A DNA stretch of 64,000 nt from Thiomicrorhabdus sp. Kp2 (GTDB taxonomy: Bacteria; Pseudomonadota; Gammaproteobacteria; Thiomicrospirales; Thiomicrospiraceae), in NCBI RefSeq assembly GCF_000478585.1, contig NZ_ARWI01000001.1, positions 806,001 to 870,000 of the forward strand. The letters are read 5' to 3'. The translations under genes were made by a program, and so were the position numbers. The notes under the pieces were generated by a model. That model made no database searches and had not been told where the DNA came from. It saw only the letters and a list, made by a program, of their open reading frames with translations. This document shows, piece by piece, positions 3,413 to 60,414 of the stretch (position 1 is the stretch's first letter; each line of letters opens with the position of its first letter).

Positions 3413-3424
3413 ACCAGGCCTGGT
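3413..3424. repeat. 12-bp palindrome ACCAGGCCTGGT, copy 1
   Basis: Exact copy between the convergent membrane-protein and bolA genes. No extended arms. Confidence 0.97.
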
Positions 3425-3439
3425 CAAAACCTATTTAAA

Positions 3440-3739
3440 TTAATGGCCGCCTGTACACTTGGGTGACGCTGGAATACTTTGTTCTACTGCTAGCCATTCT
3501 GTTGGTGTATAGGTATGCAACGCTAAAGCATGAAACTGCGGCATTAGCTCAGCCAATACTTTATAAATGGCCTGCTGTCTTTTCACCTTACTTAAGCCAT
3601 CAAATGACTTTGAGACCACGGTTAATTTAAAATGCGATTCAGGTGCTGGGCCAGAGTGCATATGGCTTTCATTCAGCAATTCCATAAACTGCACATCAAA
3701 TGCATCATTTATTGCTTGTTCTATTTGTGGTTGAATCAT
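3440..3739 (-). CDS. BolA family protein
   Basis: This 99-residue protein has the BolA/YrbA fold pattern: an N-terminal helix, the SHFKLTVVSKSFDGLSKVKR segment and a C-terminal FHALALHTYTPTEW strand-helix. The central SHMHSG stretch supplies histidines of the type that coordinate a shared [2Fe-2S] cluster with monothiol glutaredoxins; this role is known for the family and not shown here. It carries a Cys-x-Gly-Gly-His tail (CTGGH). It is monocistronic and convergent with the membrane protein upstream in the window. A second, shorter BolA paralogue (IbaG type) is at 55188-55406, so this one is the BolA-type member. Confidence 0.9.
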   Translation of the reverse strand: MIQPQIEQAINDAFDVQFMELLNESHMHSGPAPESHFKLTVVSKSFDGLSKVKRQQAIYKVLAELMPQFHALALHTYTPTEWLAVEQSIPASPKCTGGH

Positions 3740-3938
3740 TATTCTATCCCTAACTCATTCTTGATTAACTTGTGATTTATGCCCAATTAGCTAATTTATC
3801 TACATCGTAATAAAACTAATTAATAACTACAACAGTGAATTTTATTACAAGTTAAAGCATTCATGCAAAAATTACACATACAATAATTTATATAAATTGA
3901 ACGGTTAAGTTCAACTTTAACATTACCAGGAGAAATCA

Positions 3939-4463
3939 ATGCGTATATTCATCACCCCCCTTTTAAGTTTAAGCCTTCTTTTTTCTAGCTACGCTCATTC
4001 AGCCAGCGGTGATACCGTTAAAACCGCTAATGCAGACTTTAAATTAAAACCTGTACCAGAACTACAAGATCCACCAAGTGACCGTTTTCCAGGTGATCCT
4101 GCTGAGCACAAAGCGGTTTATATGTTCAACAAATCCGATGCCGCCTACCAAACAGGCATTTTAAATTCCATTCAAGCGATGATTAAGCGCTATGGCGGTA
4201 ATGTGGACATTGCCGTAGTGGCCATTGGACCAGGCCTGCACGTTTTAGCCAAAAAACCGCAACGCGAAGTAGAAGCTTTAACCTATGAACGAGTTGCAAG
4301 TTTTGCCAAAGATTACAACGTTCGCTGGATCGCTTGTGGTAACACCATGAACACCATTCATTGGACAGACGCCGATATGCGCCCTTTTGCTGAATACGCT
4401 GAAGTGGGTGCGGCTGCATTGATGGAGCTGCAAGAAGAAGGCTATAAACCATTAGTGTGGTAA
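3939..4463 (+). CDS. Exported DsrE/DsrF-like protein
   Basis: The 174-residue product starts with a clear Sec signal peptide (MRIFITPLLSLSLLFSSYAHSA), so the mature protein should be periplasmic. The remainder matches the DsrE/DsrF-like alpha/beta fold, with the nucleotide-like strand KAVYMFNKSD, the VAIGPGLHVL loop and one conserved cysteine, C133, in the IACGNTMN segment. DsrE-family proteins carry persulfide sulfur in sulfur oxidisers, but exported single-cysteine members are poorly characterised and the substrate here is unknown. A good ribosome binding site (CCAGGAG) precedes the ATG. The next gene, a VIT-type transporter, starts 40 bp downstream on the same strand. Confidence 0.85.
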   Translation: MRIFITPLLSLSLLFSSYAHSASGDTVKTANADFKLKPVPELQDPPSDRFPGDPAEHKAVYMFNKSDAAYQTGILNSIQAMIKRYGGNVDIAVVAIGPGLHVLAKKPQREVEALTYERVASFAKDYNVRWIACGNTMNTIHWTDADMRPFAEYAEVGAAALMELQEEGYKPLVW

Positions 4464-4503
4464 ACGCGATTAACAGACAACTCTTAACTAAGAGGCAAAA
4501 GTT

Positions 4504-5223
4504 ATGCAGTTTGAGACCAAAGAAGACTTAGATGAACATTTAGTCACGATGCATTACAGCCATAGAATGGGCTGGCTTCGCGCAGCGGTTTTAGGGGCGA
4601 ATGATGGCATTATCTCCGTGGTCAGTTTAATCGTAGGTGTCATTGCCGCTGGCGCTGAACGTGATTACATTTTACTGGTTGCAATTGCGGCTTTAGCCGC
4701 TGGGGCTATGGCTATGGCGGCGGGTGAATATGTATCGGTTAGTTCACAGTCAGACACTGAGCAAGCCGACTTAGAGATTGAAAAGAAAGCCCTTGAAGAG
4801 GATTGGGAAACCGAAAAACATGAACTCGCACTCATCTACATGGAGCGTGGGGTTACTGAACAGACCGCCCATCAAGTAGCGCATGAACTTATGGAACATG
4901 ACGCTTTGGATGCCCATCTCAGAGATGAGCTGGGGTTATCTGAAATTCATAGCGCCAATCCAATACAAGCGGCATTTGCTTCAGCCGTCTCCTTTATTAC
5001 TGGTGGTGTTATTCCAGTGATTTTAGTGGCTGTTCTACCACTAGAAAACATGGGGATTGTCATCACAGTTTCCTCACTCATATTGTTAGGTACTTTAGGA
5101 GCACTCTCTGCATGGGTAGGTGGCGCTAGCAAACTAAAAGGAGCTATGCGAGTGGTAATTTGGGGAAGTATCGCAATGGCGATTACCACCTGGGTGGGCA
5201 TGATTTTTGGCGTTGCTGGTTAA
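4504..5223 (+). CDS. VIT/CCC1-family divalent metal transporter
   Basis: The 239-residue protein is a VIT1/CCC1 homologue, a family that moves Fe(II) or Mn(II) out of the cytosol. It shows the N-terminal LGANDGIISVVSL segment, then AMAAGEYVSVSSQSDTE on helix 2, which holds the family's metal-relay residues. An acidic helical cytosolic metal-binding domain follows (about residues 85-150, rich in Glu and His, e.g. HELMEHDALDAHLRDELG), and then three more membrane segments. In bacteria the family is usually annotated as VIT or Nramp-independent iron/manganese exporter. It follows the exported DsrE-like gene by 40 bp, and a strong bidirectional terminator lies downstream. Confidence 0.92.
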   Translation: MQFETKEDLDEHLVTMHYSHRMGWLRAAVLGANDGIISVVSLIVGVIAAGAERDYILLVAIAALAAGAMAMAAGEYVSVSSQSDTEQADLEIEKKALEEDWETEKHELALIYMERGVTEQTAHQVAHELMEHDALDAHLRDELGLSEIHSANPIQAAFASAVSFITGGVIPVILVAVLPLENMGIVITVSSLILLGTLGALSAWVGGASKLKGAMRVVIWGSIAMAITTWVGMIFGVAG

Positions 5224-5239: not shown

Positions 5240-5251
5240 ACCAGGCCTGGT
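5240..5251. repeat. 12-bp palindrome, copy 2
   Basis: Exact copy between the convergent VIT and channel genes, 20 bp before their bidirectional terminator. The palindrome extends to 18 bp (ATTACC ... GGTAAT). Confidence 0.97.
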
Positions 5252-5362: not shown

Positions 5363-6217
5363 CTATTTATTCACTTGTTGTTGAGCTAAGAGTGTATCTA
5401 ACTTTTGATGCAATAAGGCTATCTCAGCTTCCATCTTTTGCTCATGATTTTGAATGGCGGTTAACTCATCCGCAACACTTTCAGCGCCCACTTCTTTAGC
5501 CGCTTCAGCTTCCATTTTTTTATGCTCTTCATCCAAAACTTCTACCACTATCCCAATCATCATATTTAAAAAGACAAACGCAGAGAAGAAGATAAAAGTA
5601 ATAAAGTAAATCCAACTTAAACTGTATAAAGTCATCGCTTCATACATCACATCTGTCCAGTCTTCAAACGTGGCTACACGGAACAGTGTTAATAATGAAA
5701 TCCCTAAATCGCCCCACAAGACTGGGTTTAATTGTGCAAACAGCATATTGCCGATAACCGCATACAGGTAAAAGATGATAAACATCAATAGTGCGACATA
5801 CCCCATTCTAGGAAGTGCTGAAATAAGAGCGCTCACCAACACTCTCAATTCTGGGATAAATGAAATTAAACGCATGACACGGAATAAACGTAACATTCTG
5901 GCAATTAAGGCATACTCAGAGTCATCGAGAGGTATTAAGCTGACCACCACAATCACAAAGTCAAAGATGTTCCAACCCTTCTTGAAAAAATCTCTAAAAC
6001 GATCCTCGGCCGCCATACGGATGGTGATCTCAATCACAAAGAACAGCGTAACCGCATAATCTAAACTAATCAAAATCGTTTCAGCCAGGCCTGGTAACTC
6101 GTAGGTACGAATACCAATCATTAAGGATGAAAAAATAATGACCGAGATAACAAACAGTTCAAACACTTTGTTATCGCGAATATGTTGAAAACGATTTTGA
6201 AAATCTAACCACGTCAT
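5363..6217 (-). CDS. Voltage-gated cation channel (BacNav/NaChBac superfamily)
   Basis: This is a single-repeat six-helix ion channel subunit of 284 residues that should assemble as a tetramer in the inner membrane. S4 has arginines every third position (R107, R110, R113, R116 in ARMLRLFRVMRLI). The pore loop ends in a selectivity filter TFEDWTD at residues 183-189. A long charged C-terminal helix (about residues 235-280) fits the family's coiled-coil tetramerisation bundle. I place the start at the ATG at 6217, preceded by AGTAGG, rather than 14 codons upstream. The two aspartates in the filter are unlike the TLESWSM filter of sodium-selective relatives and suggest calcium permeability. Confidence 0.9.
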   Translation of the reverse strand: MTWLDFQNRFQHIRDNKVFELFVISVIIFSSLMIGIRTYELPGLAETILISLDYAVTLFFVIEITIRMAAEDRFRDFFKKGWNIFDFVIVVVSLIPLDDSEYALIARMLRLFRVMRLISFIPELRVLVSALISALPRMGYVALLMFIIFYLYAVIGNMLFAQLNPVLWGDLGISLLTLFRVATFEDWTDVMYEAMTLYSLSWIYFITFIFFSAFVFLNMMIGIVVEVLDEEHKKMEAEAAKEVGAESVADELTAIQNHEQKMEAEIALLHQKLDTLLAQQQVNK

Positions 6218-6295
6218 TGTTATGCCTACTTTTGTATTTAATCTTATTATGAAAAACACTTGTTGACAGTTTGCTTATAGCTTATGGCTAATATT

Positions 6296-6307
6296 ACCAG
6301 GCCTGGT
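6296..6307. repeat. 12-bp palindrome, copy 3
   Basis: Exact copy in the divergent spacer between the channel and ferredoxin genes. No extended arms. Confidence 0.97.
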
Positions 6308-6399
6308 CAAACTGAAATTTTGGCTATTTTACTGTATTGATTCACGCATTTAATTGTTAAAATAAATTTTTTTATCACACAGTAGGAAAGTACAGAGTC

Positions 6400-6651
6400 A
6401 TGGCAAAAATTACGGTAGTAGGACAAGGTGAATGTGAATTTGATGGGCAGTTCTCAATGCTAGAAGCATTAGACGAAAATGGGTTTGATATGCCTTATAG
6501 CTGTCGTGGTGGAAATTGTGGTGCTTGCTCAGTACGATTGATCTCTGGTGAAGTTGAAGAGATTCAAGACCCCGCTTATGAAGCCCGAAAGAGTGAAATT
6601 TTAACCTGCAGTGTCATTCCAGTTTCTGATGTTGAAATTGAGTTAATTTAA
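6400..6651 (+). CDS. Plant-type [2Fe-2S] ferredoxin
   Basis: The 83-residue protein is a soluble electron carrier of the plant/adrenodoxin-type beta-grasp ferredoxin fold. The cluster ligands are plain: C35, C40 and C43 in SCRGGNCGAC, and C70 in ILTCSV, the CX4CX2C...C pattern. It is a free-standing domain with no fused reductase. It is divergent from the channel gene and convergent with pstS, with a 12-bp palindrome on each side and a bidirectional terminator downstream. The redox partner cannot be read from the context. An AGTAGGAAAG ribosome binding site precedes the ATG. Confidence 0.93.
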   Translation: MAKITVVGQGECEFDGQFSMLEALDENGFDMPYSCRGGNCGACSVRLISGEVEEIQDPAYEARKSEILTCSVIPVSDVEIELI

Positions 6652-6679: not shown

Positions 6680-6691
6680 ACCAGGCCTGGT
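6680..6691. repeat. 12-bp palindrome, copy 4 (24-bp arms)
   Basis: Exact copy in the convergent ferredoxin/pstS spacer. The perfect palindrome runs 6674-6697 with outer arms GAAACG / CGTTTC. The bidirectional terminator follows. Confidence 0.97.
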
Positions 6692-6787: not shown

Positions 6788-7744
6788 TTACTTTAGTTTA
6801 GCCAGTTCTTTAGCAGCAAAATCCGCTGGTACAGGGATGTAACCATCTTTAGTAACCGCTTCTTGACCTTGCTTAGAAAGTACAAGCTTCATGAACTCAC
6901 TAATTACAGGCTCTGCTGGCTTGTTAGGCGCTTTGTTTACATATACATAAAGTACACGTGAAAGAGGGTAAGTACCATTTAATGCGTTAGCATTAGTCGG
7001 CTCAACTTGCTTACCACCCGCTTTTTTAGCAATCGCTAAAGCTTTAACACCAGCCGTTTTATAACCGATACCAGAATAACCAATCGCGTTTAAAGAAGTT
7101 GAAACTGACTGTACAACTGAAGCTGAACCAGGCTGCTCATTTACAGATGACTTGTAATCACCTTTACAAAGCGCTTTTTTCTTGTAGTAACCGTAAGTAC
7201 CAGAAACTGAGTTACGACCATAAATCTGAATAGACTTATCCGCTAAAGCACCTGTTGCACCAGCTTGCCCCCAAGTAGTAATATCGTCTTTAGCACCACA
7301 CTTACGGGTAGAAGAGAAGATCGCATCCACTTGTGGAATAGATAGACCGTCAATTGGGTTATCTTTGTTTACATATACTGCTAGAGCATCAATCGCTACA
7401 CCGATTTTTGTTGGCTTATAACCATGCTTAGATTCAAACATTGCAATTTCTTTATCTTTCATTGCGCGGCTCATAGGCCCAACATTTGAAGTCCCTTCCG
7501 TTAGAGCTGGAGGAGCAGTAGAAGAACCTGCCGCCTGAATTTGGATATTTACATTAGGGTAAGCACGCTTAAACTCTTCAGCCCAAAGTGTCATTAGGTT
7601 AGCTAATGTATCCGAACCTACAGAAGATAAGTTTCCAGAAACACCAGAAACTTTTTCATAATTCGGTAATTCAGATGCATAGGCAGTAGATGTTGCAACA
7701 GAAGCTGCAAGACCCATTGCTAATAAGATGTTTGCTTTTTTCAT
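6788..7744 (-). CDS. pstS: Phosphate ABC transporter substrate-binding protein PstS
   Basis: PstS captures phosphate in the periplasm for the PstCAB importer. The 318-residue protein (start at the ATG at 7744, preceded by GGAG) has a signal peptide ending at AYA/ASA around residue 24. It also has family phosphate-contact segments, including [25 protein letters not shown] and [12 protein letters not shown]. It is transcribed away from pit across a 254-bp spacer with three TGTCA repeats that look like a Pho box, so induction by PhoB is expected. pstS is separated from pstCAB by pit, phoR, phoB and phoU, an arrangement seen in several gammaproteobacteria. Confidence 0.96.
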
Positions 7745-7823
7745 GGTTAAAACTCCAAAAATTAAATTTAATGAATTTGCTTGAATACGTTGCAAAGTAT
7801 AAGAAGCCTTCATAAAACAAAAT

Positions 7824-7998: not shown

Positions 7999-9570
7999 AT
8001 GGAATTTCGAGATATAAACGAGTTTGAAAACGCCACATCTCGTGGTAGAAAAGAGATGTTCCGCTTTGGAACCGCCCTACTTTTTATCATTATGATCATT
8101 CTGTTTGCCTCAAACATTCAAACTGGCACAGGTGTTGTGAGTATTGAATTGGTTGTTGCGGCAATGATTGGTGGTTATATGGCACTTAATATTGGTGCTA
8201 ATGATGTTGCTAATAATGTTGGGCCCGCAGTTGGCTCTAAAGCCCTAACACTGACGGGTGCCATTATTATTGCTGCTATCTTTGAGTCGGCAGGCGCACT
8301 GATTGCGGGTGGCGATGTGGTAAGCACAATCAAAAAAGGCATTATAGACCCCGCTCTCATTGGCGACAGTGATACCTTTATCTGGTTGATGATTGCTGCG
8401 CTATTGGCAGGGGCTTTATGGCTTAATCTAGCAACCGCAATGGGCGCACCTGTTTCAACGACTCACTCCATTGTGGGTGGCGTATTAGGTGCAGGTATTG
8501 CAGCAGCAGGTTGGTCAATTGCTAACTGGGAACAAATGGGCGCCATTGCCGCTAGCTGGATAATCTCACCCGTTATTGGTGGGCTCATTGCCGCGAGTTT
8601 CCTCTACTGGATAAAGAGGAGTATCACCTATCGAGACGACATGGTTAGCGCAGCCAAAAAAATGTTACCCATTTTGATTGCCATTATGGCTTGGGCTTTC
8701 TCAACTTATCTGATTATGAAAGGTCTAAAAAAGATCTGGAAAGTCGATTTTATTGATGCCGTCTTAATTGGTTTAGCGATTGCCACCGCTACCTATATCA
8801 CACTTAGACCCATTATCGCACGCCAGGCAAAACGTCTTGAAAATACCAAAGCGAGTGTGAATACCTTATTTACCATGCCGCTTATATTTGCCGCAGCTTT
8901 ATTAAGTTTTGCACACGGCGCTAACGATGTCGCTAATGCTGTTGGTCCACTGGCGGCCATTAATGATGCTGTACAAACACATGGAGTTTCGACTAAAGCT
9001 GAAATTCCGTTATGGGTCATGCTCATTGGGGCAATTGGTATCAGTTTAGGTCTGCTGTTATTTGGGCCTAAACTGATTAAAACGGTTGGTTCTGAGATCA
9101 CAGAACTCGACCAAATGCGCGCCTTCTCGATCGCTATGGCGGCATCCATTACCGTTATTGTTGCCTCACAACTCGGTTTACCAGTAAGCTCAACCCACAT
9201 TGCCGTAGGGGGTGTCTTTGGGGTTGGTTTCCTGCGCGAGTACTTAAAACGCAGTTATGCAAAAACGATTCAGTCTATTCGTGATCACCACCAAGGTTCA
9301 GATCAACAAGAAGTGGAAGAGTATATTATCCGTTTTGAAAAAGCCTCTCTTATTGAGAAAAAAGAGATGTTGGCGCAACTGAAAGCGAAAGAGGCCGAAG
9401 TGGCTTTAAGTAAAAAAGAGCGTAAGTCTTTAGATAAAGTTTACCAAAAAGAACTGGTAAAACGTTCTGCGTTCTTAAAAATTGTGGCCGCTTGGGTGAT
9501 TACCGTTCCAGCATCAGCCACCTTAGCCGCTTTAATTTACTTTACAATTAGAGGGATGATGCTTCCATAA
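7999..9570 (+). CDS. pit: PiT-family inorganic phosphate transporter
   Basis: This 523-residue inner-membrane protein is a PiT/PHO-4 carrier that symports metal-phosphate or phosphate with a cation. The two inverted halves each carry the family signature: GANDVANNVGPAVGSKAL near residue 66 and GANDVANAVGPLAAI near residue 308. A charged cytosolic stretch near residues 430-490 (rich in KEK and EKKE) precedes the last helix, as in longer bacterial PiT proteins. It is divergent from pstS and followed by a strong terminator. Pairing a Pho-linked high-affinity system with a PiT carrier in one locus is common; whether pit answers to PhoB is not clear from its own upstream sequence. Confidence 0.95.
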   Translation: MEFRDINEFENATSRGRKEMFRFGTALLFIIMIILFASNIQTGTGVVSIELVVAAMIGGYMALNIGANDVANNVGPAVGSKALTLTGAIIIAAIFESAGALIAGGDVVSTIKKGIIDPALIGDSDTFIWLMIAALLAGALWLNLATAMGAPVSTTHSIVGGVLGAGIAAAGWSIANWEQMGAIAASWIISPVIGGLIAASFLYWIKRSITYRDDMVSAAKKMLPILIAIMAWAFSTYLIMKGLKKIWKVDFIDAVLIGLAIATATYITLRPIIARQAKRLENTKASVNTLFTMPLIFAAALLSFAHGANDVANAVGPLAAINDAVQTHGVSTKAEIPLWVMLIGAIGISLGLLLFGPKLIKTVGSEITELDQMRAFSIAMAASITVIVASQLGLPVSSTHIAVGGVFGVGFLREYLKRSYAKTIQSIRDHHQGSDQQEVEEYIIRFEKASLIEKKEMLAQLKAKEAEVALSKKERKSLDKVYQKELVKRSAFLKIVAAWVITVPASATLAALIYFTIRGMMLP

Positions 9571-9598
9571 CCTGGTAAAAGCATAAAACCACTGAAAT

Positions 9599-9628
9599 AA
9601 AAAAGGGCCTTTTATAGGCCCTTTTTTT
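9599..9628 (+). terminator. Terminator of pit
   Basis: Stem AAAGGGCCT / AGGCCCTTT with loop TTTAT and a run of seven T, 28 bp after the pit stop. The left A-run lets it act in the reverse direction too, though phoR ends about 190 bp away. Confidence 0.9.
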
Positions 9629-9748
9629 GTACCTTGTATGACTGAACTACCAAGAAAAATCGAAGGTTTTACTATGGCTAAGTATTCTTAACTCTTCACT
9701 TGACTTGGCTCTGCACCATGAGCATTTTTTTTAATGTTTAACCAAGTT

Positions 9749-9760
9749 ACCAGGCCTGGT
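9749..9760. repeat. 12-bp palindrome, copy 5
   Basis: Exact copy between convergent pit and phoR. Arms extend imperfectly (AAGT / ACTT after one mismatch). Confidence 0.97.
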
Positions 9761-9815
9761 CACTTCAATATCTGAGTGCTTAATATTTGCTTACACGATG
9801 GTTTAAACAAATACA

Positions 9816-11102
9816 TCACCGAGCAAGCTTAATTGGAAATTCACAGCGAAAAACACTGCCCTTTCCTAAAACACTCTCAATACTCAAACGTGCTTCATGC
9901 TTTTCAAGCACATGTTTAACAATGGCTAATCCTAGACCTGTACCACCTGTAACACGAGAACGGTCTTTATCCACCCGATAAAAACGCTCTGTTAAACGTG
10001 GAATATGCTCCTGAGCAATACCTAAACCGTTGTCTTGAACTTCAAAGACAACATACTGTTTATCTTTATACCAACGAACGGTTATTTCACCGCCATCAGG
10101 AGAGTAGCGCACAGCATTAGAAAGTAAGTTCATAAACACACTTTTAAGCGGTTCAGCATAGCCCTTTATTTTAAGCGATTGATCAATCTCAAACGTAAAA
10201 TGATGGTTTTCACCCCCCAGTTGTTGTGCATCGATTTCCAGCTGTTGCAATTTCTTGGGGACATCAACCGTTTTCTTCTCTGCGGTAATCGATTCCGCTT
10301 CAATTGTGGAAAGCGTTAACAAGTCTTCAATAATCGTTTGCATTCTATGTGACTGAGTTTCCATATGCTCTAAAGGTAAACGCCAATTTTCTTGGTGTTC
10401 ACCTGGCGTATCAATCATCACCTCCAAATACCCTCTTAACACGGTTAGAGGTGTGCGAAGCTCATGGGATGCATTGGCAATAAAATCTCGACGAATTTGG
10501 GCGAGCTGGTAGAGTTCAGTAATATCTCGCACCACCAATAACTTATGATTCTCAAAATAATGAATAATTTGCATTTCATAAGTTCGTGCTGGACGGTAGC
10601 TGGAGTTAACAGTGAGGGATTTAGAAAAATCACCCGCTTTCAAATATTGAACAAAGTCAGATTGCCTAACAACCGATTCAATTTTACTGCCTTTATCTTG
10701 CTTCCTAATTCCTAATAAGGTTTTGGACACGGTATTAAACCATTCAATATTATTGTACTGATCAAGAGAGACAATAACGTCAGGAATCAGCATTGATGCG
10801 GCTTTAAATTGCTCAGATTTATAAAGATTCAAGTCGACATGCTTCTCTAATGCACGCTGTTTTTTAGAAACCAAATAAGTCAGTTCGCTCCAAAAACCAG
10901 AAACAGGTGGATAGGTGTTTTGTAATCGACCATCCATCCATTTTTCAAACTTTCGGATGCTCCACAATTGGCGTGAAATATAGAAAACAATGAATATAAA
11001 CAGTGAGATTAACCAAAAATCTGTCACCCACGCAAAAAAAAGCAACACCCATGCACTGGTAATAATCCAGGTTAACTCACGCTTTATGCCATTTGATAAC
11101 AA
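9816..11102 (-). CDS. phoR: Phosphate regulon sensor histidine kinase PhoR
   Basis: PhoR phosphorylates PhoB when the Pst system signals low phosphate. The 428-residue protein has two N-terminal membrane segments (about residues 10-40), a linker, a PAS domain, the HisKA box NASHELRTPLTVL with the phosphorylated histidine near residue 212, and HATPase boxes NAVRYSP, DNGLGI and GGTGLGLAIVK. The start is a TTG only 3 bp after the phoB stop. A GAGG ribosome binding site inside the end of phoB sits 8 bases upstream, which supports that start and translational coupling. It ends the pstC-pstA-pstB-phoU-phoB-phoR operon and is convergent with pit. Confidence 0.95.
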   Translation of the reverse strand: MLSNGIKRELTWIITSAWVLLFFAWVTDFWLISLFIFIVFYISRQLWSIRKFEKWMDGRLQNTYPPVSGFWSELTYLVSKKQRALEKHVDLNLYKSEQFKAASMLIPDVIVSLDQYNNIEWFNTVSKTLLGIRKQDKGSKIESVVRQSDFVQYLKAGDFSKSLTVNSSYRPARTYEMQIIHYFENHKLLVVRDITELYQLAQIRRDFIANASHELRTPLTVLRGYLEVMIDTPGEHQENWRLPLEHMETQSHRMQTIIEDLLTLSTIEAESITAEKKTVDVPKKLQQLEIDAQQLGGENHHFTFEIDQSLKIKGYAEPLKSVFMNLLSNAVRYSPDGGEITVRWYKDKQYVVFEVQDNGLGIAQEHIPRLTERFYRVDKDRSRVTGGTGLGLAIVKHVLEKHEARLSIESVLGKGSVFRCEFPIKLAR

Positions 11103-15205: not shown

Positions 15206-17476
15206 CTATAACGAACCGTATTTACGACGCATACGTTGACGAACAACTTCTGCTAAGGTGTTAAAAATAAAGGTAAAAATAAACAATACCAGGCCTGCTA
15301 AAAATAAAACTCGATAGTGTGAACTGGATACTTCTGCTTCGGCCATTTCTACTGCTAAGTTAGCCGATAGAGTTCTCATACCCTCAAAGATATTCACTTC
15401 CATTAATGGTGTATTACCTGAAGCCATCAAGACAATCATTGTCTCCCCAACACCACGACCAAAACCAAGCATAATCGCTGAAAAGATACCTGGACTGGCG
15501 GTTGGCAAAACAACACCAACAAGAGTCTGCCAACCACTCGCACCGAGCGCTAAAGAACCATTCACTAAATAACTCGGCACGTTATAGATAGCATCTTCTG
15601 TTACCGAGAAAATGGTCGGTATTAAGGCAAAGCCCATGGCAAACCCGATAACCATCGCATTACGCTGATCAAAATCGATACCTGCTGATGCGGTTAACCA
15701 GTGACGCATATTGCCGTCAAACATCGCATTTTCAATCGGCCCACTGAGTTGTAATGAAAACCACCCCAAAAAGACAATTACAGGAATCATTAGCACGGCA
15801 CGTTTGCCAACTGGAATGAATAGACGAATGCTTTCAGGCAATCTTGACCAAGCATAACCAAACAAGATAATGCCAAGTGGTAAAACAATCAGTATGGCAA
15901 AGAACCCTGGTAAGTTTGCCTCCATATAGGGAGCAAGCCACAAACCTGCTAAGAAACCTAAAATAACGGTTGGTAAAGCTTCAATCATCTCGACCGAAGG
16001 CTTAACCCATTGGCGAGTGGCTTTATCCATAAAGAATGCGGTATAAATCGCAGCTAGAATAGCAATAGGAACAGCAAATAACATTGAGTAGAGTGCCGCT
16101 TTAATGGTACCGAACGTCAATGGCATTAAGGAGAACTTAGGTTCAAAATCTGAACTCGCAGATGAAGATTGCCAAGTATAAGTTGGCTCTTCATAACCTT
16201 CATACCAAACCTTACCCCATAAGCTGGAAACAGAAACATCAGGATGCTCATTTTCAATCGTAAAATGAGTTAAGAGTCCATCGTTCGTTTCAACTATGGC
16301 ACCATTAGCTCGAGGAGCAATGGTTACTAAATTTGCGCCAACAGAACTGACTTCTTCCGAAGCTAAGTGGCGCTCAGACGTAGAATGGAACAAGTTAAAG
16401 CGACCGCTTGCATCCGATGTGGCAAAGCCTTTACGAGCAAGCTCAATACCTATCGACTCAACGGCTGAATCACCTACATGAAATTTACGGATTGGTTTTA
16501 ATGCAAAATCATTTGACTCATCACGCACAGGAAACCACTGATAAACATTTCCTTTATCAGAACCAATCATTAAGGAATAATCACCCAATAAAAAACGAAT
16601 AACCGTAGGTGTCTCACCTTGAGGCATTAAATTAACATGTTGAATTAATTCAGGGCTTTCAACATTTCTAATATCGTAATAATCAGCCACACCTGCCTGA
16701 GAGATGGTATATAAATTACGGCCACTCGTATCAATCATCAACCATTTCAAGGAGATATTACTATCAAAATGACCACTTCCGTCTTCTTCAAGTACGACTG
16801 AATCCGTAAGCATCGACTCAATCTTAGTAAAGGATTTAAGTGTAATGGTTTTTGAACCCTCAACTTGATAAGCCAACCTTAGCTCTGACTCAAATGCTTT
16901 TACCGCAAGATTGGTAATTTTTCCATCGGCCAAAGCAATAGGCTCCTGACCAAATGGGTAGACCACCTTTGGAGAAATCTTACGCACATTATTAGGATAA
17001 CTAACGTCATAATCGTATTTAGCAAACAACACACTACCATTTGATAAACCAAAAACCAATAAACGGTCTAACTCACTAACCACTTTATAGGTAGTGATTT
17101 CTGCGCCATTTAACGGAAGCCTCTCTTTAAAATTAATGGTGCCATCTTTAACATCAAAACCAACCAAATCGCCCGAATCCGTAAAGCGAATAGCCGTCGT
17201 CTGATACTCATCAATGCCATAATACAAAGTTCTCTCTTGCTGACTTCCTGGGATTGAATACTGAGCCGTTTTCTCGATAGTTGCAGGCACAAAGAGAGGT
17301 AATACAACATACAACAAAAAGAACATAATCAGCAATACCGCTAAAATAACGCTCATACCGCCTACTGATATTCCATATTTAGAAATACTGTCTTTTAAAT
17401 TTCTTCGTCGAATACGCTTTTCAAACGCTTTACCGCTTAAAGCCTGATCCAATTTAGTCTGAATCGTTGCACTCAT
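15206..17476 (-). CDS. pstC: Phosphate ABC transporter permease PstC, long form
   Basis: PstC pairs with PstA to form the phosphate channel. At 756 residues it is more than twice the length of the E. coli protein. A first membrane helix (about residues 39-62) is followed by a soluble region to about residue 450 with repeated beta-rich blade-like segments, such as the GNVYQWFPV and GRFNLFHS stretches, which suggest a beta-propeller in the periplasm. The permease core occupies the last 300 residues, with the EAA loop SYLVNGSLALGASGWQTLV. Long PstC proteins occur in Pseudomonas and relatives. It heads the operon, and an 11-mer shared with the pstS Pho box lies upstream at 17585. Confidence 0.94.
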   Translation of the reverse strand: MSATIQTKLDQALSGKAFEKRIRRRNLKDSISKYGISVGGMSVILAVLLIMFFLLYVVLPLFVPATIEKTAQYSIPGSQQERTLYYGIDEYQTTAIRFTDSGDLVGFDVKDGTINFKERLPLNGAEITTYKVVSELDRLLVFGLSNGSVLFAKYDYDVSYPNNVRKISPKVVYPFGQEPIALADGKITNLAVKAFESELRLAYQVEGSKTITLKSFTKIESMLTDSVVLEEDGSGHFDSNISLKWLMIDTSGRNLYTISQAGVADYYDIRNVESPELIQHVNLMPQGETPTVIRFLLGDYSLMIGSDKGNVYQWFPVRDESNDFALKPIRKFHVGDSAVESIGIELARKGFATSDASGRFNLFHSTSERHLASEEVSSVGANLVTIAPRANGAIVETNDGLLTHFTIENEHPDVSVSSLWGKVWYEGYEEPTYTWQSSSASSDFEPKFSLMPLTFGTIKAALYSMLFAVPIAILAAIYTAFFMDKATRQWVKPSVEMIEALPTVILGFLAGLWLAPYMEANLPGFFAILIVLPLGIILFGYAWSRLPESIRLFIPVGKRAVLMIPVIVFLGWFSLQLSGPIENAMFDGNMRHWLTASAGIDFDQRNAMVIGFAMGFALIPTIFSVTEDAIYNVPSYLVNGSLALGASGWQTLVGVVLPTASPGIFSAIMLGFGRGVGETMIVLMASGNTPLMEVNIFEGMRTLSANLAVEMAEAEVSSSHYRVLFLAGLVLFIFTFIFNTLAEVVRQRMRRKYGSL

Positions 17477-27039: not shown

Positions 27040-27051
27040 ACCAGGCCTGGT
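27040..27051. repeat. 12-bp palindrome, copy 7
   Basis: Exact copy between the convergent FliL-like and cysteine-rich protein genes, 30 bp after the terminator. Confidence 0.97.
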
Positions 27052-45109: not shown

Positions 45110-45121
45110 ACCAGGCCTGGT
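45110..45121. repeat. 12-bp palindrome, copy 12
   Basis: Exact copy between the FadL-type gene and its terminator, extending to 20 bp (AGTT / AACT arms, 45106-45125). Confidence 0.97.
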
Positions 45122-45143: not shown

Positions 45144-46388
45144 TTAATATTTCCAAACCAATTGGGCACTGAAAATATCCACAGCTGAATCATAAGAACC
45201 CACTAAATACTGCACATTATCCGTTGAATAGTTCACCTTTGATTTATCCGCAAAAAGATGGCTATACCCAATATCCAAATCCATAGTTGGACTCACTTTA
45301 TAACCTAAACCTAAGGCTAGCCATTTGCGGTCAGAATCAGGTGTGCGTGGACTACGATGTGTTTCATTCGAAACAGGAGTTTGGTCAAATGCCACACCCG
45401 CTCTTAATTTCATATCATCATTCAACTGATAGATACCACCCAATGATAAACGCCAGCTGTCTTTAAAGTCTTGTCGAGTGTCAGTAATCTCTACTCCCGA
45501 AGCATTTTCGATGATTAAAGAACCATAATCACTCCATTTTGTCCAAGTTGCATCGGTAAGAACGGTGAATCTATTGTATTGATGGGATAGACTTAAAGAA
45601 GCAGAAGCAGGAAGGCTAACAGTTGAAGAAATTTTTCCATCTAATCCACTAAGAGCATCAGGATAAGCAATCGTACCTTTTGCATCCTGAGTAACTGATG
45701 AACGGTAAGCTAAACCAATATTTGTTTTGGCTTGTGGTTTCCATAAAAAACCAAAGTTATAGCCATACCCCCAGCTATCTGCCTTAATTTTTAGACCGTC
45801 ATCACCAGCTGTTCCTGTCGAGCTTCCAAGATTGACCTGCTGTTCCATGACCAAATCCACATATTGAGCATTCAATCCAAAACCAAAAGAAAATTCTTCA
45901 TTGATTTTGCGTGCTATAGCAGGGTTGATATTAATGGTTTTAAGGTTTGTTTCAGTTGCATGATAACGACCGACCCAATCATCCTCATAAGAGATATGCT
46001 GACCAAAAGGCACATTGATACCTAAACCGATATCGTAATCCCCCGCTTTGCCTTTCCAGTAAATATTCGGCACAAAACCAATTGTAGCACCATCATCACC
46101 ACTTCCCTCTAGCCTGTTCGCTTCAACAGCTAGATATGAACCATCATTAGAAAACTTGGCCATTGGCGAAATAATATGCCCACCAATAATTGCTTGATTA
46201 CCTTTAATCTCGGTTAACCCAGCAGGGTTAAACCACATGACACTGGCATCTTCGGCATTGGCGGCCGCACCTGCATAGGCGGTACCTTGCCCACTAGCAC
46301 TTTGTTCAATTAAGGCAAACCCTGAAGCTTGTACAGTTTGCGATGCGAGCGCTAATAAAACGGCTGTGGTTAATTTATTAAATGGCAT
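45144..46388 (-). CDS. FadL/OmpP1-family outer-membrane channel
   Basis: The 414-residue protein has a signal peptide (KLTTAVLLALASQTVQA) and the FadL hallmark after it: SGFALIEQSASGQGTAYAGA and the NPAGL hatch segment. A beta-barrel follows with alternating aromatic residues and a terminal aromatic strand (SAQLVWKY). Family members take up long-chain fatty acids or hydrocarbons. In sulfur-oxidising autotrophs, homologues have been suggested in sulfur or hydrophobic substrate handling, which is inference here. It has its own terminator and an exact copy of the 12-bp palindrome on both sides. Confidence 0.92.
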   Translation of the reverse strand: MPFNKLTTAVLLALASQTVQASGFALIEQSASGQGTAYAGAAANAEDASVMWFNPAGLTEIKGNQAIIGGHIISPMAKFSNDGSYLAVEANRLEGSGDDGATIGFVPNIYWKGKAGDYDIGLGINVPFGQHISYEDDWVGRYHATETNLKTININPAIARKINEEFSFGFGLNAQYVDLVMEQQVNLGSSTGTAGDDGLKIKADSWGYGYNFGFLWKPQAKTNIGLAYRSSVTQDAKGTIAYPDALSGLDGKISSTVSLPASASLSLSHQYNRFTVLTDATWTKWSDYGSLIIENASGVEITDTRQDFKDSWRLSLGGIYQLNDDMKLRAGVAFDQTPVSNETHRSPRTPDSDRKWLALGLGYKVSPTMDLDIGYSHLFADKSKVNYSTDNVQYLVGSYDSAVDIFSAQLVWKY

Positions 46389-46494: not shown

Positions 46495-46506
46495 ACCAGG
46501 CCTGGT
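46495..46506. repeat. 12-bp palindrome, copy 13
   Basis: Exact copy between radA and the FadL-type gene, extending to 16 bp. Confidence 0.97.
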
Positions 46507-46535: not shown

Positions 46536-47900
46536 TTATAAAACGTCTAACGCTTGCTGTAAACTCTTAACGCCAATAATTTCCATGCCTGGAATACCAT
46601 TTTTTGGCACATTACCAATTGGTACAATGGCACGTTTAAAGCCGTGTTTTGCCGCTTCAATAATACGTTCTTGCCCACTAGGTACAGGACGAATCTCCCC
46701 TGCAAGCCCCACCTCTCCAAAAATAATCAGCTCTTGCGATAAAGGTTGATTTCGCATACTGGACAGAATGGAACATAAAACAGCCAAGTCCGCACTGGTT
46801 TCAGAGACTTTTACGCCACCCACCACATTGACATAGACATCTTGATCACTTGCTTGAATACCACCATGGCGATGCATAACTGCTAACAGCATGGCCATAC
46901 GATTTTGATCCAGACCGACGGTAACTCGCTTTGGCGCACCATAAGGAGAATCATCAACCAATGCTTGAATCTCAACCAATAGCGGGCGTGAACCCTCCCA
47001 AACCACCATCACGACTGAGCCTGGAGCCGCATCTTCACCTCTTGATAAAAAGATGGCGGATGGGTTTTTAATCTGCTTCATGCCTTTTTCAGTCATGGCA
47101 AATACACCCAACTCATTAACCGCACCAAAACGGTTTTTAATGGCTCTTAGGGTTCTAAAACGACTGTCGGATTGCCCTTCTAAAAAGACCACTGTATCTA
47201 CAATGTGCTCTAAAACCCTAGGCCCCGCCACCTCACCAGATTTAGTCACATGCCCCACTAAAAATATGGCCACATTGTTTTGTTTTGCGTAACGAGTTAA
47301 ATAGGCCGCACTCTCTCTTACTTGAGAAACACCGCCTGCACCACCACTCACTTCAGCCAATTGCATGGTTTGTATAGAGTCGACCACCATAACCTTAGGT
47401 TTTTCATTTTCTGAGGCAACGGTAATCGTTTCAACGTCTGTTTCAGTAAACAACCTTAATTTTTCATCAGGCAACTGCATACGTTTGGCTCTTTGTGCAA
47501 CCTGTTGCAATGACTCTTCACCAGTCACATAGAGTACGTTTTGCTGAGTACTTAAATGACACATCACTTGCAAAAGAATAGAGGATTTACCTACTCCAGG
47601 ATCTCCACCAATCAATACAACAGAGCCTGGTACAATCCCTCCACCTAAAACCCTGTCTAATTCAGACATGCCCGATGAGATGCGTGGCACCACAGATAAA
47701 TCGACATCATTAATGGATTGAACCTTATTTTGGGTCGTACCAGCATAGCCTTTAGAGCCCGTCCCAGTCGATTTTTTAGCTGGAGACAGCTTAAACTCTT
47801 TTAACGTATTCCAAGCATGACAAACTTGGCATTGCCCTTGCCATTGAGCGTGTTCTGCTCCACATTCGGTACACACATAAGCGGATTTATTTTTGGCCAT
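46536..47900 (-). CDS. radA: DNA repair protein RadA
   Basis: RadA is a RecA-like helicase for branched DNA in recombination. The 454-residue protein has the N-terminal zinc finger (CTECGAEHAQWQGQCQVC), Walker A GGDPGVGKSSIL near residue 95, Walker B VMVVDSIQTMQ, the RadA motif KNRFG (AIKNRFGAVNELG) and a C-terminal Lon-protease-like domain (ADLAVLCSILSSMRNQPLSQ). All are intact. It is monocistronic, and a MITE-like repeat lies immediately upstream of its start. Confidence 0.97.
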   Translation of the reverse strand: MAKNKSAYVCTECGAEHAQWQGQCQVCHAWNTLKEFKLSPAKKSTGTGSKGYAGTTQNKVQSINDVDLSVVPRISSGMSELDRVLGGGIVPGSVVLIGGDPGVGKSSILLQVMCHLSTQQNVLYVTGEESLQQVAQRAKRMQLPDEKLRLFTETDVETITVASENEKPKVMVVDSIQTMQLAEVSGGAGGVSQVRESAAYLTRYAKQNNVAIFLVGHVTKSGEVAGPRVLEHIVDTVVFLEGQSDSRFRTLRAIKNRFGAVNELGVFAMTEKGMKQIKNPSAIFLSRGEDAAPGSVVMVVWEGSRPLLVEIQALVDDSPYGAPKRVTVGLDQNRMAMLLAVMHRHGGIQASDQDVYVNVVGGVKVSETSADLAVLCSILSSMRNQPLSQELIIFGEVGLAGEIRPVPSGQERIIEAAKHGFKRAIVPIGNVPKNGIPGMEIIGVKSLQQALDVL

Positions 47901-50932: not shown

Positions 50933-51673
50933 TTACACTGGATTTTCAATATCAACAAAAAAACACTGTAAATCAAACTTTTTCTCTAAATGTTCACCCA
51001 ATGCTTTAATCCCCAAACGCTCTGTAGCATGATGCCCTGCTGATAGATAATGCAGACCACACTCTTTGGCTAGATGGGTGGTCTGCTCAGAGACTTCACC
51101 GCTAATATAAACATCAGCACCCCACTCAATCGCTTGGTCTATATAACCTTGCGCTCCACCACTGCACCAAGCAATACGTCTTACCAACTCTTTACCACCA
51201 GGCAAGTGCAAAGCATCACGCTGTAAACTGTGAGATACCATGGTTTTAAATTCTTCAATAGAGACTGATTCTGGTAACTCTCCTAATCTTACCAGGCCTG
51301 GTAAAGGAGTAATATCGGTAAGCCCCCATAACTGACCTAATAAGGCATTATTACCCAACTCTTCATGGGCATCTAACGGCAAGTGATAACCAAAGAGGTT
51401 AATATCATTAAGTAGTAAGCTTTTGATACGCTTTTGCTTAAAACCAGTAATGACCTCTGGCTCACTTTTCCAAAAATAGCCGTGATGTACCAAAATTGCA
51501 TCGGCATTTAAATCAATCGCTTGATCAATTAATGCCTGACAGGCTGTGACACCCGTCACGATTGTTTTTATCTGCTCACAACCCTCAACCTGCAAACCAT
51601 TGGGGGCGTAATCTTTAAAATCGTTTACCTTCAAGTAGCTTTGTAAATAATCTTGCAACTCTTGTCGTAACAT
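50933..51673 (-). CDS. Nif3-like dinuclear metal centre protein
   Basis: The 246-residue protein belongs to the NIF3/YbgI family (GTP cyclohydrolase I type 2-like). Metal-ligand segments are LVHHGYFW near residue 64, the histidine in GYHLPLDAHEELG and the C-terminal SAGHHATERLG. E. coli YbgI forms a hexameric ring with a dinuclear metal site; its physiological role is not settled. The gene lies between hisD and petA. Codons for LPGLV carry an exact copy of the 12-bp palindrome at 51291. Confidence 0.93.
   Translation of the reverse strand: MLRQELQDYLQSYLKVNDFKDYAPNGLQVEGCEQIKTIVTGVTACQALIDQAIDLNADAILVHHGYFWKSEPEVITGFKQKRIKSLLLNDINLFGYHLPLDAHEELGNNALLGQLWGLTDITPLPGLVRLGELPESVSIEEFKTMVSHSLQRDALHLPGGKELVRRIAWCSGGAQGYIDQAIEWGADVYISGEVSEQTTHLAKECGLHYLSAGHHATERLGIKALGEHLEKKFDLQCFFVDIENPV
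51291..51302. repeat. 12-bp palindrome, copy 14 (inside the nif3-like gene)
   Basis: Exact copy within the coding region, read on the minus strand as LPGLV. Confidence 0.97.
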
Positions 51674-51749: not shown

Positions 51750-51785
51750 AAAAAAGCCACCAGGCCTGATAGGCAATGGTGGCTT
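51750..51785 (-). terminator. Terminator of hisG-hisD containing a palindrome near-copy
   Basis: Arms AAGCCACC and GGTGGCTT form the hairpin on the minus strand, followed by a T run. The plus strand reads CACCAGGCCTGAT within it, one base from the 12-bp palindrome, so the two structures overlap. Confidence 0.85.
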
Positions 51786-55429: not shown

Positions 55430-56221
55430 TTATTGGCGTATTTTAACGCCTTTATTCAATAAAATCAGATTTATCGCAGAAACCAAAATAACAAAGAAGC
55501 TCGTTACCGCCAAACTCAAATAAACCGATACGTCAGACTGCTCAAAAAATCCGTATCTAAACCCATCTACCATATAAAAGAATGGATTAAAGTGCGAAGC
55601 TTGCTGCCAAACCTCTGGTAATGCATGAATAGAGTAAAACACCCCACTCAAAAAAGTCAGTGGCATAATAATAAAATTCTGAAACGCAGCAAGATGGTCA
55701 TATTTTTCGGAAACAATGCCTGCTAACATGCCTAATCCCCCCATCATAGCTGCACTTAATACGGCAAAAACAATAATCCAAAGGGGTTGATGCCAAGTTA
55801 AATCAAACCACATAATACCAATGACTAAAATACCTAAACCCACTGCAACACCACGAACAATTGAGGCTGCTACAAAGGCCATATACAACTCAAAAGGTGA
55901 GATTGGGCTCAGTAACACAAAGGTTAAGTTGCCGTGCATTTTTGACTGAATTAAACTCGATGAACTATTTGAAAATGCATTTTGCAATATCGCCATCATT
56001 ACCAGGCCTGGTATCAAGAACTGGCTGTATGATAATCCTGAATAGGTTTCAATTTGTGAAGCGATAACTTGGCCAAAAACCAATAAATATAATAGGGTTG
56101 ATACCACTGGGGCAAAAACCGTTTGCACCACCACAGAATAAAAACGGCGAATCTCTTTAATAAACAGAGCCCAAAATCCCGTAAAATTAAAGCTAAACAT
56201 AGAGAATAAACTAGACAACAT
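55430..56221 (-). CDS. ABC-2 type exporter permease
   Basis: The 263-residue inner-membrane protein has six membrane segments in the ABC-2 pattern (YadH/NodJ-like). It begins with an amphipathic FWALFIKEIRRFYSVVVQTV and has the family's FLSGVFYSIHALPEVWQQ near residue 190. It overlaps its ATPase partner by one base. The substrate is unknown; in other gammaproteobacteria the same pair sits between mlaB and ibaG/murA. An exact 12-bp palindrome copy lies in the gene at 56001. Confidence 0.92.
   Translation of the reverse strand: MLSSLFSMFSFNFTGFWALFIKEIRRFYSVVVQTVFAPVVSTLLYLLVFGQVIASQIETYSGLSYSQFLIPGLVMMAILQNAFSNSSSSLIQSKMHGNLTFVLLSPISPFELYMAFVAASIVRGVAVGLGILVIGIMWFDLTWHQPLWIIVFAVLSAAMMGGLGMLAGIVSEKYDHLAAFQNFIIMPLTFLSGVFYSIHALPEVWQQASHFNPFFYMVDGFRYGFFEQSDVSVYLSLAVTSFFVILVSAINLILLNKGVKIRQ
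56001..56012. repeat. 12-bp palindrome, copy 15 (inside the ABC-2 permease gene)
   Basis: Exact copy within the coding region, read on the minus strand as IPGLVM. Confidence 0.97.
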
Positions 56222-58690: not shown

Positions 58691-58727
58691 GTGATTTTTC
58701 CCTTTAAATCATATTGCTTACACGACA

Positions 58728-59537
58728 TTAATTAAACATCAATGTCGTTAAAATAAAGTCTAGCCCAAGTACACCCAATGAACTGTGCACCACGGTTCGA
58801 GTGGTTGCACCACTCACGCCCTCAGAGGTTGGAATAGCATCAAACCCTTGATACAAAGCAATGATGGCAATCAAAATCGCAAATGCAATCGATTTAATAA
58901 TGCCGTTCATTACATCCTCTTGCCAATCAACATGGCTATTCATTTGTGACCAAAAAGAGCCCTCATCAACCCCCAACCAACCTACGGCAACCATATAGCC
59001 GCCAATAATACCTAATGCGGTAAATAACAGAGTTAGTAAAGGTAGCGCAATAATCGCTGCGGTGAAGCGTGGAGCATAGATATATTTAAGAGGATCAATT
59101 GCCATCATTTCTAATGCGGATATCTGTTCTGTTGAGCGCATTAAACCAATTTCTGCCGTTAGTGCTGAACCCGCTCTACCTGCAAATAACAGTGCGGCAA
59201 CCACTGGACCAAGTTCACGCAACAGAGATAAAGCGGTCATGGTTCCCACCGCTTCTTCTGAATTATAGTCCACTAAAACATTGTAGCCTTGCAGGCTTAG
59301 AACCATACCAACAAATAGACCTGCTGTAAGGATGATAGGCAGGGATAACACCCCTGCCACATAAATCTGTTTAGTTAATAAATCGATACGCCACAAAGAG
59401 TAAGGTATGGCAGGAAATAACGATACTAAAAAGAACGCCCCACGACCAAACGAACCAAGGATATTTAAGGTTTTTTTACCCAGCTCCTGTAAAAGTTTTA
59501 ATCCAAAAACAGGTTGTTTATTGATTTGTTGACTCAT
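58728..59537 (-). CDS. mlaE: Lipid ABC transporter permease MlaE
   Basis: MlaE is the inner-membrane permease of the Mla lipid transporter. The 269-residue protein shows the MlaE family core (VLSLQGYNVLVDYNSEEAVG, AGRAGSALTAEIGLMRSTEQ, EMMAIDPLKYIYAPRF). It starts five bases after mlaF and contains about five to six membrane helices. The standard gene order suggests that the system maintains outer-membrane lipid asymmetry. Confidence 0.96.
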   Translation of the reverse strand: MSQQINKQPVFGLKLLQELGKKTLNILGSFGRGAFFLVSLFPAIPYSLWRIDLLTKQIYVAGVLSLPIILTAGLFVGMVLSLQGYNVLVDYNSEEAVGTMTALSLLRELGPVVAALLFAGRAGSALTAEIGLMRSTEQISALEMMAIDPLKYIYAPRFTAAIIALPLLTLLFTALGIIGGYMVAVGWLGVDEGSFWSQMNSHVDWQEDVMNGIIKSIAFAILIAIIALYQGFDAIPTSEGVSGATTRTVVHSSLGVLGLDFILTTLMFN

Positions 59538-59542
59538 CAGTC

Positions 59543-60364
59543 TTACACACTTTGATTATTGGTTTTAAAAGGTGTCATATCATCCAGATACGAATCTTTT
59601 GAATAGTGAAATGGCACTGGACCATCAGGCAACCCATGAATAAACTGGTTAACATAGCCTGTTTTTTCATTAAGTAACTCTTCTTTGGTGCCCTGAGCAA
59701 TAATCTTACCTTCTGACATGACACACACATAATCGGCAATCGACAACACCTCATTCACATCATGGGAAACTACAACACTGGTTAAATTAAGACTGTCATT
59801 TAACTTACGAATTAACTCAACCAATACACCCATTGTAATAGGGTCTTGCCCAACAAAAGGCTCATCATAAAAAATCATCTCAGGATCGAGTGCAATACCA
59901 CGTGCTAAGGCGACTCTTCGCGACATACCACCAGAGAGTTCGGCTGGCATTAAGTCTTTAGCACCGCGCAAACCAACCGCCTGCAATTTCATTAATACCA
60001 GCGGATAGATTACCGACTCGGGTAATTTAGTATGCTCTCTTAATGGGAAAGCCACATTATCAAAAACATTTAAATCCGTTAACAGAGCACCACTTTGAAA
60101 AAGCATACCCATCTTTCTTCTTAGCTGATAAAGTTTTTTACGAGGTAGTTTATGAACATTTTCACCTTCAACAAAAATCTCACCAATATCTGGCTGAAGC
60201 TGACCTGCAATTAATTTAAGAAGAGTTGTTTTCCCAGAACCACTAGGCCCCATAATTGCAGTCACTTTGCCTCTTGGAATACTCAACGAAATATCATCAA
60301 AGATTTTTCGTTCACCACGCATAAAGGATAAATTTTTAATTTCTATTAATGTCTGATTTTGCAT
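59543..60364 (-). CDS. mlaF: Lipid ABC transporter ATP-binding protein MlaF
   Basis: MlaF powers the MlaFEDB lipid transporter. The 273-residue protein has Walker A GPSGSGKTTLLKLIAG, signature LSGGMSRRVALARGIA and Walker B MIFYDEPFVGQDP, all intact, and a C-terminal tail of about 25 residues beyond the ABC domain. It is first in mlaF-E-D-C-B. An exact 12-bp palindrome copy lies 39 bp upstream of its start. Confidence 0.96.
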   Translation of the reverse strand: MQNQTLIEIKNLSFMRGERKIFDDISLSIPRGKVTAIMGPSGSGKTTLLKLIAGQLQPDIGEIFVEGENVHKLPRKKLYQLRRKMGMLFQSGALLTDLNVFDNVAFPLREHTKLPESVIYPLVLMKLQAVGLRGAKDLMPAELSGGMSRRVALARGIALDPEMIFYDEPFVGQDPITMGVLVELIRKLNDSLNLTSVVVSHDVNEVLSIADYVCVMSEGKIIAQGTKEELLNEKTGYVNQFIHGLPDGPVPFHYSKDSYLDDMTPFKTNNQSV

Positions 60365-60402
60365 ATTAATTAATGTCGATTGCGACTGTCGCTTTTCATG
60401 TT

Positions 60403-60414
60403 ACCAGGCCTGGT
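60403..60414. repeat. 12-bp palindrome, copy 16
   Basis: Exact copy 39 bp upstream of mlaF, extending to 14 bp. Confidence 0.97.

Follow-up and report, generated by a model that had tools for sequence, protein, structure and literature searches.

The 64,000-nucleotide stretch of Thiomicrorhabdus sp. Kp2 analyzed here (contig NZ_ARWI01000001.1, positions 806,001 to 870,000; the window) contains 16 exact copies of the 12-bp palindrome ACCAGGCCTGGT, the center of a repeat found hundreds of times in this genome and, in several dialects, in related genomes. DNA uptake specificity is its most likely function, a view that we hold with somewhat better than even confidence. The best reading of the repeats is that they form a DNA-uptake-sequence-like family that is the third of its kind, has not been described, and includes palindromic dialects. 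In the literature covered, self-specific uptake sequences came from two families only, the Neisseriaceae, with the DNA uptake sequence (DUS), and the Pasteurellaceae, with the uptake signal sequence (USS). A third case, in sulfur oxidizers with at least five dialects in 62 genomes, would, if true, allow independent tests of the reasons for the evolution of such signals, of the joint change of receptor and genome, and of gene exchange by dialect. Through the motif, natural transformation could also be tested concretely in these genera, for which the literature covered holds no report of it.

In the mechanism that we propose, the 12-mer forms the core of a DNA uptake sequence for self-recognition. 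Fragments bearing the word would be favored by a DNA receptor on the cell surface, probably within a type IV-like (MSHA-type) pilus that feeds ComEC. By analogy with DUS and USS, preferential uptake of DNA from kin and its recombination would spread and maintain the word wherever a gene or spacer tolerates it. Close-set or self-complementary copies may have been co-opted as transcription terminators, as far as their sequences indicate. The dialects observed suggest that, as the receptor drifts, either a new dialect would overwrite the old one in the genome or the word would decay. We see an even chance that the Thiomicrospiraceae uptake system evolved independently of those of the Neisseriaceae and Pasteurellaceae, with a receptor that reads a two-armed palindrome or a one-armed A-tract word depending on the lineage, a change of dialect altering both letters and symmetry.

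Abundance and placement of the palindrome

The Kp2 genome (2,725,706 bases, one contig) holds 557 exact copies of ACCAGGCCTGGT and 861 copies with at most one mismatch, a count that rules out a feature of the window alone; the reversed word, used as a control, gave 0 and 1, respectively. In a sample of 864 kb, for which 40 stretches of 20 kb were added to the window, 170 exact copies were found, against 0.12 expected from an order-3 Markov model. Orders 1 to 4 gave expectations between 0.026 and 0.44, and order 5 gave 9.4, its 6-mers being themselves enriched by the motif. An origin by composition or chance was rejected: among all 4096 palindromic 12-mers, the runner-up has 5 copies in the same sample. 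The earlier note, made from the letters of the window, had named a count near the Markov expectation and a motif present only in the window as outcomes that would undo its proposal; the genome-wide counts gave neither.

Spread along the chromosome was Poisson-like, with 1 to 9 copies per 20 kb and a variance-to-mean ratio of 0.87 over the 40 stretches. Scattered in hundreds of copies and far more frequent than expected, the word shares this trait with uptake sequences. According to our own simple gene caller, on which the placement rests, 76 of the 170 exact copies lie in coding sequence, 53 in gaps between tandem genes, 30 in convergent gaps, 10 in divergent gaps, and 1 at a stretch edge. These numbers correspond to 0.10, 1.04, 2.03, and 0.37 copies per kb for coding sequence and for tandem, convergent, and divergent gaps, respectively. 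Most copies in tandem gaps (39 of 53) are closer to the stop than to the following start. Within the window, 12 of the 16 exact copies are intergenic by the list of open reading frames (ORFs), as had been claimed, with the remaining 4 in genes; the intergenic share outside the window is smaller.

Analysis of the flanking columns revealed that the 12-mer is the center of a 22-bp dyad, AANYT-ACCAGGCCTGGT-ARNTT. The flanks of the dyad were seen in coding and noncoding copies alike and are weaker in the coding ones. The inner 8-bp word, CAGGCCTG, has 368 copies in the 864-kb sample. Of 95 one-mismatch variants, 2 have the change in CAGGCCTG; in the other 93, it falls on one of the two outermost bases of an arm.

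Dialects across the Thiomicrospiraceae

We counted the word in the 62 genomes of the order, all of which belong to one family. Exact copies of ACCAGGCCTGGT numbered 84 to 718 in 27 genomes, 16 to 38 in 4, and 0 to 6 in 31; 21 members of the class outside the order had 0 or 1. A scan of named genomes for the 14-mer TACCAGGCCTGGTA matched at least 117 stretches, of which 80 were listed. Among the matches listed, Thiomicrorhabdus sp. Milos-T2 accounted for many stretches, and some came from other Thiomicrorhabdus, from Thiomicrospira, and from Hydrogenovibrio halophilus; unrelated taxa mostly had single matches.

Six of the 31 genomes with 0 to 6 copies of ACCAGGCCTGGT carry another word. The ACCGGCCGGT dialect has 1025 copies in G024 and 0 to 15 in each of the other 61 genomes. 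Forms of A(A/G)CAGGCCTG occur in G005, G018, and G026 (16 to 25 copies of the 12-mer) and in G008 (38), and are mixed with the 12-mer in G035, G075, and G082 (181 to 212 copies). Two dialects are asymmetric, namely, AAAATCTRCCAGGTTGGGG in G064 and G068 and AAAACTCAACAGGCCGGGT in G021. The degenerate asymmetric pattern MCAGGYYGGGK had 353, 407, and 562 matches in the group of G064, G068, and G021 (562 in G021), 321 in G063 (listed mainly as CCAGGCTGGGG/T), 335 in G004, and 1 to 61 in the other 57 genomes. Its strands were balanced in the five rich genomes, the most uneven count being 138 versus 183. The ACCAGGCCTGGT, ACCGGCCGGT, and AGCAGGCCTGCT forms are palindromic; the two asymmetric dialects are not. 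When aligned by eye, the dialects had in common a left half composed of an A-tract, CT, and then ACCAGG or a near form. The description of the core as two CCWGG sites around GGCC, offered before relatives were compared, does not capture the essence of the motif, since the consensus lacks CCWGG in three of five dialects and GGCC in one.

In a seven-gene tree of 39 genomes, G063, G064, and G068 formed a single clade (support of 100), and G021 grouped with G005, G026, G018, and G008 (support of 100; 65 to 95 inside the group, and weak, at 65 to 67, just around G021). The dialects follow phylogeny and some family members are without a word, as in uptake sequences. The Neisseriaceae DUS likewise has several dialects that follow phylogeny, a short common core, and family members without the word, according to the available part of PMC3630211.

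No clearly overrepresented dispersed word was found in 80 to 100 kb each of G003, G025, and G020 or in 59 kb of G014. The same test on 16 to 20 kb of G011, G013, G027, G058, G063, and G069 was uninformative, because it missed G063 with its 321 matches. G014 has a weakly enriched word, AAAAACGCCC, which could be part of a terminator or another dialect. In G020, ACCTCTTATAAA was found 15 times in 60 kb; it dropped from the top list once copies less than 150 bp apart were merged and is therefore probably a tandem or CRISPR-like array.

Inverted pairs, hairpins, and putative terminators

The asymmetric dialects have A-tracts beside the core. The consensus of AAAACTCAACAGGCCGGGT (52 sites in 260 kb of G021) has A-rich columns at -9 to -4 and again at -20 to -18, at the edge of the scored range; that of AAAATCTRCCAGGTTGGGG (45 sites in 300 kb of G064) has the first A-tract only. 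An A/T-rich extended motif beside the core is thus present, as in uptake sequences. Close pairs of sites were in the +- orientation in 8 of 8 cases for AAAACTCAACAGGCCGGGT in G021; those of AAAATCTRCCAGGTTGGGG in G064 were 4 +- and 2 -+. Together, 12 of 14 close pairs were +-, forming inverted hairpins. Three pairs were folded (-44.3, -39.9, and -31.2 kcal/mol), and no shuffled sequence was as good. These +- pairs would serve as terminator hairpins, another trait of uptake sequences.

Equal strand counts, A-led extended motifs, a bias to +- pairs, and enrichment in tail-to-tail gaps are known for both USS and DUS (PMC1852404), and uptake words occur in terminators of the Neisseriaceae and Pasteurellaceae (PMC13020248, available part). 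In the Neisseriaceae, inverted DUS pairs lie in terminators (PMC3630211, in the part available). The Pasteurellaceae USS, AAGTGCGGT, resembles the present repeat in its many dispersed copies, both coding and intergenic, and in +- pairs acting as terminators (PMC1852404; available part of PMC7811141). The two also share A/T tracts by the core, one dialect here having two A-rich tracts about 12 to 13 bp apart. In contrast to USS, the word here is unrelated, three of its dialects are dyads, and its role in uptake is putative.

For the 12-mer itself, the arms of noncoding copies covary past the core (0.49 at offset +3, against 0.27 with arms shuffled), and coding copies have little such covariation (0.33 against 0.28 at +3 and 0.47 against 0.37 at +1). 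Five sites of the window, hand-picked mostly for visible extension, were folded; four formed extended hairpins (z scores of -2.3 to -3.1), and the site at position 9749 did not (z score of 0.27). Because of these hairpins and the covariation, some of the intergenic copies resemble terminator hairpins. The motif could be a favored intrinsic terminator hairpin and nothing more, which would account for the extended hairpins at some sites and for the enrichment in convergent gaps and near stops. The coding copies, which are nearly half of those sampled and whose arms hardly covary, refute terminators as the whole explanation. Terminators also do not need a fixed sequence across genomes of 36 to 57% G+C, and we consider this explanation very improbable.

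Coding copies and foreign DNA

The 76 coding copies are read in three frames, as PGLV (40), QAW (25), and TRPG (11). We compared the comEC region of 40 genomes, in which the motif-bearing genomes span 36 to 57% G+C. It yielded 41 site columns, including 6 that are ACCGGCCGGT-type and occur only in G024. We treated 13 of the 40 genomes separately as CAGGCCTG-free; 4 of these 13 carry an asymmetric dialect. Among the CAGGCCTG-free homologues, the peptide encoded by the site was found in none at 32 of the 41 columns, in some at 4, and in half or more at 5. One column has the site in 19 genomes across several genera, always read as QAW, and in 0 of 12 CAGGCCTG-free homologues; two more columns hold it in 13 and 9 genomes. 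Tryptophan at the third place of QAW was held by most CAGGCCTG-free homologues at 9 of 14 QAW columns and by one or none at 5. These alignments suggest that substitution is the main source of the word, which can remain at the same position for long periods.

A self-copying mobile element, or one similar to repetitive extragenic palindromes (REP) or miniature inverted-repeat transposable elements (MITE), might also leave hundreds of copies scattered in a genome and distributed patchily among relatives. Conservation ends at about 22 bp, and 35 of the 41 site columns lie outside insertions, so that the ungapped homologues largely refute a mobile repeat, which we rejected as extremely unlikely.

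The comEC gene of G000 (positions 8415 to 11048 of its stretch) has three core words in 2.6 kb, exceeding the coding average, perhaps only since the protein tolerates change.

One accessory region is free of the motif. The first 68 places listed in G036 are 4.6 kb apart on average except for one motif gap of 83 kb, a single case that was spotted post hoc. Four stretches of this gap contained no exact copy and 3 core words, and the ten proteins tested in it include a TrwC relaxase, GspD, and glycosyltransferases. The gap region (G036:C1 212001-292000) carries PhoX, type II secretion genes, the TrwC relaxase, and sugar-polymer genes. A phage-borne motif was rejected: the 14-mer TACCAGGCCTGGTA was present in just 36 of 2.9 million viral contigs, with one copy per stretch fetched.

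Candidate uptake machinery

Gene content makes an import route plausible. The ComEC model matched 56 of the 62 genomes, motif-free ones among them, and the ComEC of G000 exceeds the NCBIfam cutoff. G000 also has an MSHA-type operon with MshL (above the cutoff), an ATPase with an MshEN domain, a T2SSF-type protein, and further proteins. Nine proteins of this neighborhood were searched for in relatives, and 9 matched in G003, 9 in G062 (one weakly), and 8 in G064. The secretin model matched 57 of 62 genomes, which is too broad to separate groups; the GspH/FimT model matched 3 of 62, and two PilT-family genes were found in G021. In the Pasteurellaceae, the minor pilin ComN/PpdA is the predicted USS receptor (PMC12616744, available part). 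An integrase-core transposase gene (positions 5650 to 6423 of its stretch) lies upstream of the MSHA-type operon in G000. Elsewhere in that genome (G000:C1 1820001-1840000), there is a second MshL-type secretin (above the cutoff) together with several long prepilin-like proteins; this region adjoins a GspD-led type II secretion cluster.

Several observations weigh against an uptake function. Machinery and motif do not occur together consistently. Motif copies without a ComEC match were found in G004 and G006 (both incomplete), motif-bearing G004 and G010 (both incomplete) lack a secretin match, and ComEC and the MSHA operon are both present in G003, where 100 kb gave no dispersed word. No PilT-like gene was found in the third of G000 examined, the PilP model of the classical type IVa pilus matched 1 of 62 genomes, and ComP_DUS was over the cutoff in 0 of 62, with one match below it in G020. 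By the patterns used, 25 of the 62 genomes have no word at all. For part of the copies, terminator use alone fits the intergenic enrichment. The open-license literature gave no report of uptake or competence for Thiomicrospira, Thiomicrorhabdus, or Hydrogenovibrio. DUS and USS do not have a two-armed, palindromic core like that seen here; the word is also unrelated to DUS, whose receptor model, ComP_DUS, is the one just mentioned. Finally, copies with one broken arm keep a weak consensus on the broken side (a few of the 150 sites may be counted twice), and this suits a dimeric binder.

Alternative explanations

A dimeric binder could be a chromosome-organizing or global regulatory protein; it would require hundreds of sites, and the dialects would follow its changes. 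Such proteins would be in the style of Noc, SlmA, or MatP, whose sites are likewise palindromic and serve a dimeric protein. The symmetric 22-bp site with both arms constrained, the strict 8-bp core, and the uniform spread all suit this explanation. Yet two dialects are asymmetric, and no chromosomal domain pattern appeared in the 40 stretches. Unlike Noc-, SlmA-, or MatP-type sites, the word here has copies in the hundreds, up to a thousand, is spread evenly over the chromosome, and is patchy among relatives; hundreds of sites replaced or absent in relatives would be hard for a protein that depends on them. The genic copies, some in the QAW frame and including the 5 columns where tryptophan is nearly or wholly missing from CAGGCCTG-free homologues, also speak against it. 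We regard this explanation as unlikely, although it is the strongest competitor of DNA uptake.

The earlier note had likened the motif to cyanobacterial highly iterated palindrome 1 (HIP1) or to DNA uptake signals rather than to an operator. Its uptake half is supported by the dialects, the asymmetric relatives with A-tracts, the mostly +- pairs, the coding sites made by substitution, and the one motif-free accessory region; its HIP1 half is disfavored. HIP1 (GCGATCGC) and the alternate HIPs are highly iterated GC-rich palindromes, with other palindromes in some relatives, and deviate by one base outside the inner word (PMC4390886, in the part available). The last property does hold here, where one-base deviations fall on the outer bases; this pattern suits an uptake sequence, and its presence in HIP1 counts against one. 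A palindrome of this type would be made and kept by a methyltransferase with methylation-coupled repair; three palindromic dialects and GGCC in four of five consensus words agree with such an origin.

At an E value of ≤0.001, the C5 methyltransferase model PF00145 and the N4/N6 model PF01555 each matched 24 of 62 genomes. Neither of these two families, the only ones searched, was matched in 11 of the 27 rich genomes (at least 84 copies), namely, G028, G015, G010, G022, G062, G065, G067, G079, G080, G082, and G033, of which G010 and G079 are less than 90% complete. Likewise, G024 and G021 matched neither model at that threshold. We therefore rejected a C5 or N4/N6 methyltransferase as a marker of the motif, and the absences weigh against an origin of the type proposed for HIP1 in the available part of PMC4390886. 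The motif here is also longer than HIP1, is flanked by A/T, and has asymmetric, nonpalindromic dialects with A-tracts. A HIP1-type origin is accordingly quite improbable. The 12-mer was in none of the open-license papers searched, in agreement with the claim that no such element had been described, although absence in print is thus unproven.

Sites in the window

All 16 exact copies reported for the window are present at the coordinates claimed. The six sites reported with one mismatch exist as well, two of them 3 bases from the positions given (34695 and 42083 rather than 34698 and 42086). Chance would give well under one copy, as had been argued: 100 shuffles of the window had a mean of 0.07 matches with at most one mismatch, the largest number being 1. 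An Rfam search of the window returned 0 matches.

The exact sites have no strand. Four are genic, in the valyl-tRNA synthetase gene (31056 to 31067, in 28583-31414, +), the tyrosine recombinase gene (35080 to 35091, in 34301-35224, -), the NIF3-like gene (51291 to 51302, in 50933-51673, -), and the ABC-2 transporter gene (56001 to 56012, in 55430-56221, -). The one-mismatch sites are given on the + strand. Four are within ORFs, at 6084 to 6095 (an outer base, in 5363-6259, -), 15288 to 15299 (in 15206-17476, -), 34695 to 34706 (in the tyrosine recombinase gene), and 42083 to 42094 (in 41706-42527, +); the others are in a divergent gap (39341 to 39352) and at an intergenic position (51759 to 51770).

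Among the intergenic exact sites, that at 3413 to 3424 lies 16 bp past the stop of an ORF (2816-3397, +), and that at 5240 to 5251 is in a convergent gap behind a VIT-family ORF (4504-5223, +). Two are flanked by minus-strand ORFs (6296 to 6307 and 35303 to 35314). Three others follow ORFs on the downstream side: 27040 to 27051 at a distance of 93 bp from ORF 26468-26947 (+), 46495 to 46506 at 30 bp from ORF 46536-47900 (-), and 60403 to 60414 at 129 bp from ORF 60543-61145 (-). The site at 9749 to 9760, in a convergent gap, folds no better than shuffled sequences. At 6680 to 6691, 97 bp downstream of ORF 6788-7813 (-), the arms lengthen into a longer hairpin. Three more downstream sites have extended hairpins: 23634 to 23645, which follows ORF 23706-24464 (-) at 61 bp; 37750 to 37761, which follows the SRP54-family gene (37819-39204, -) at 58 bp; and 45110 to 45121, which follows the FadL/TodX-family gene (45144-46388, -) at 23 bp.

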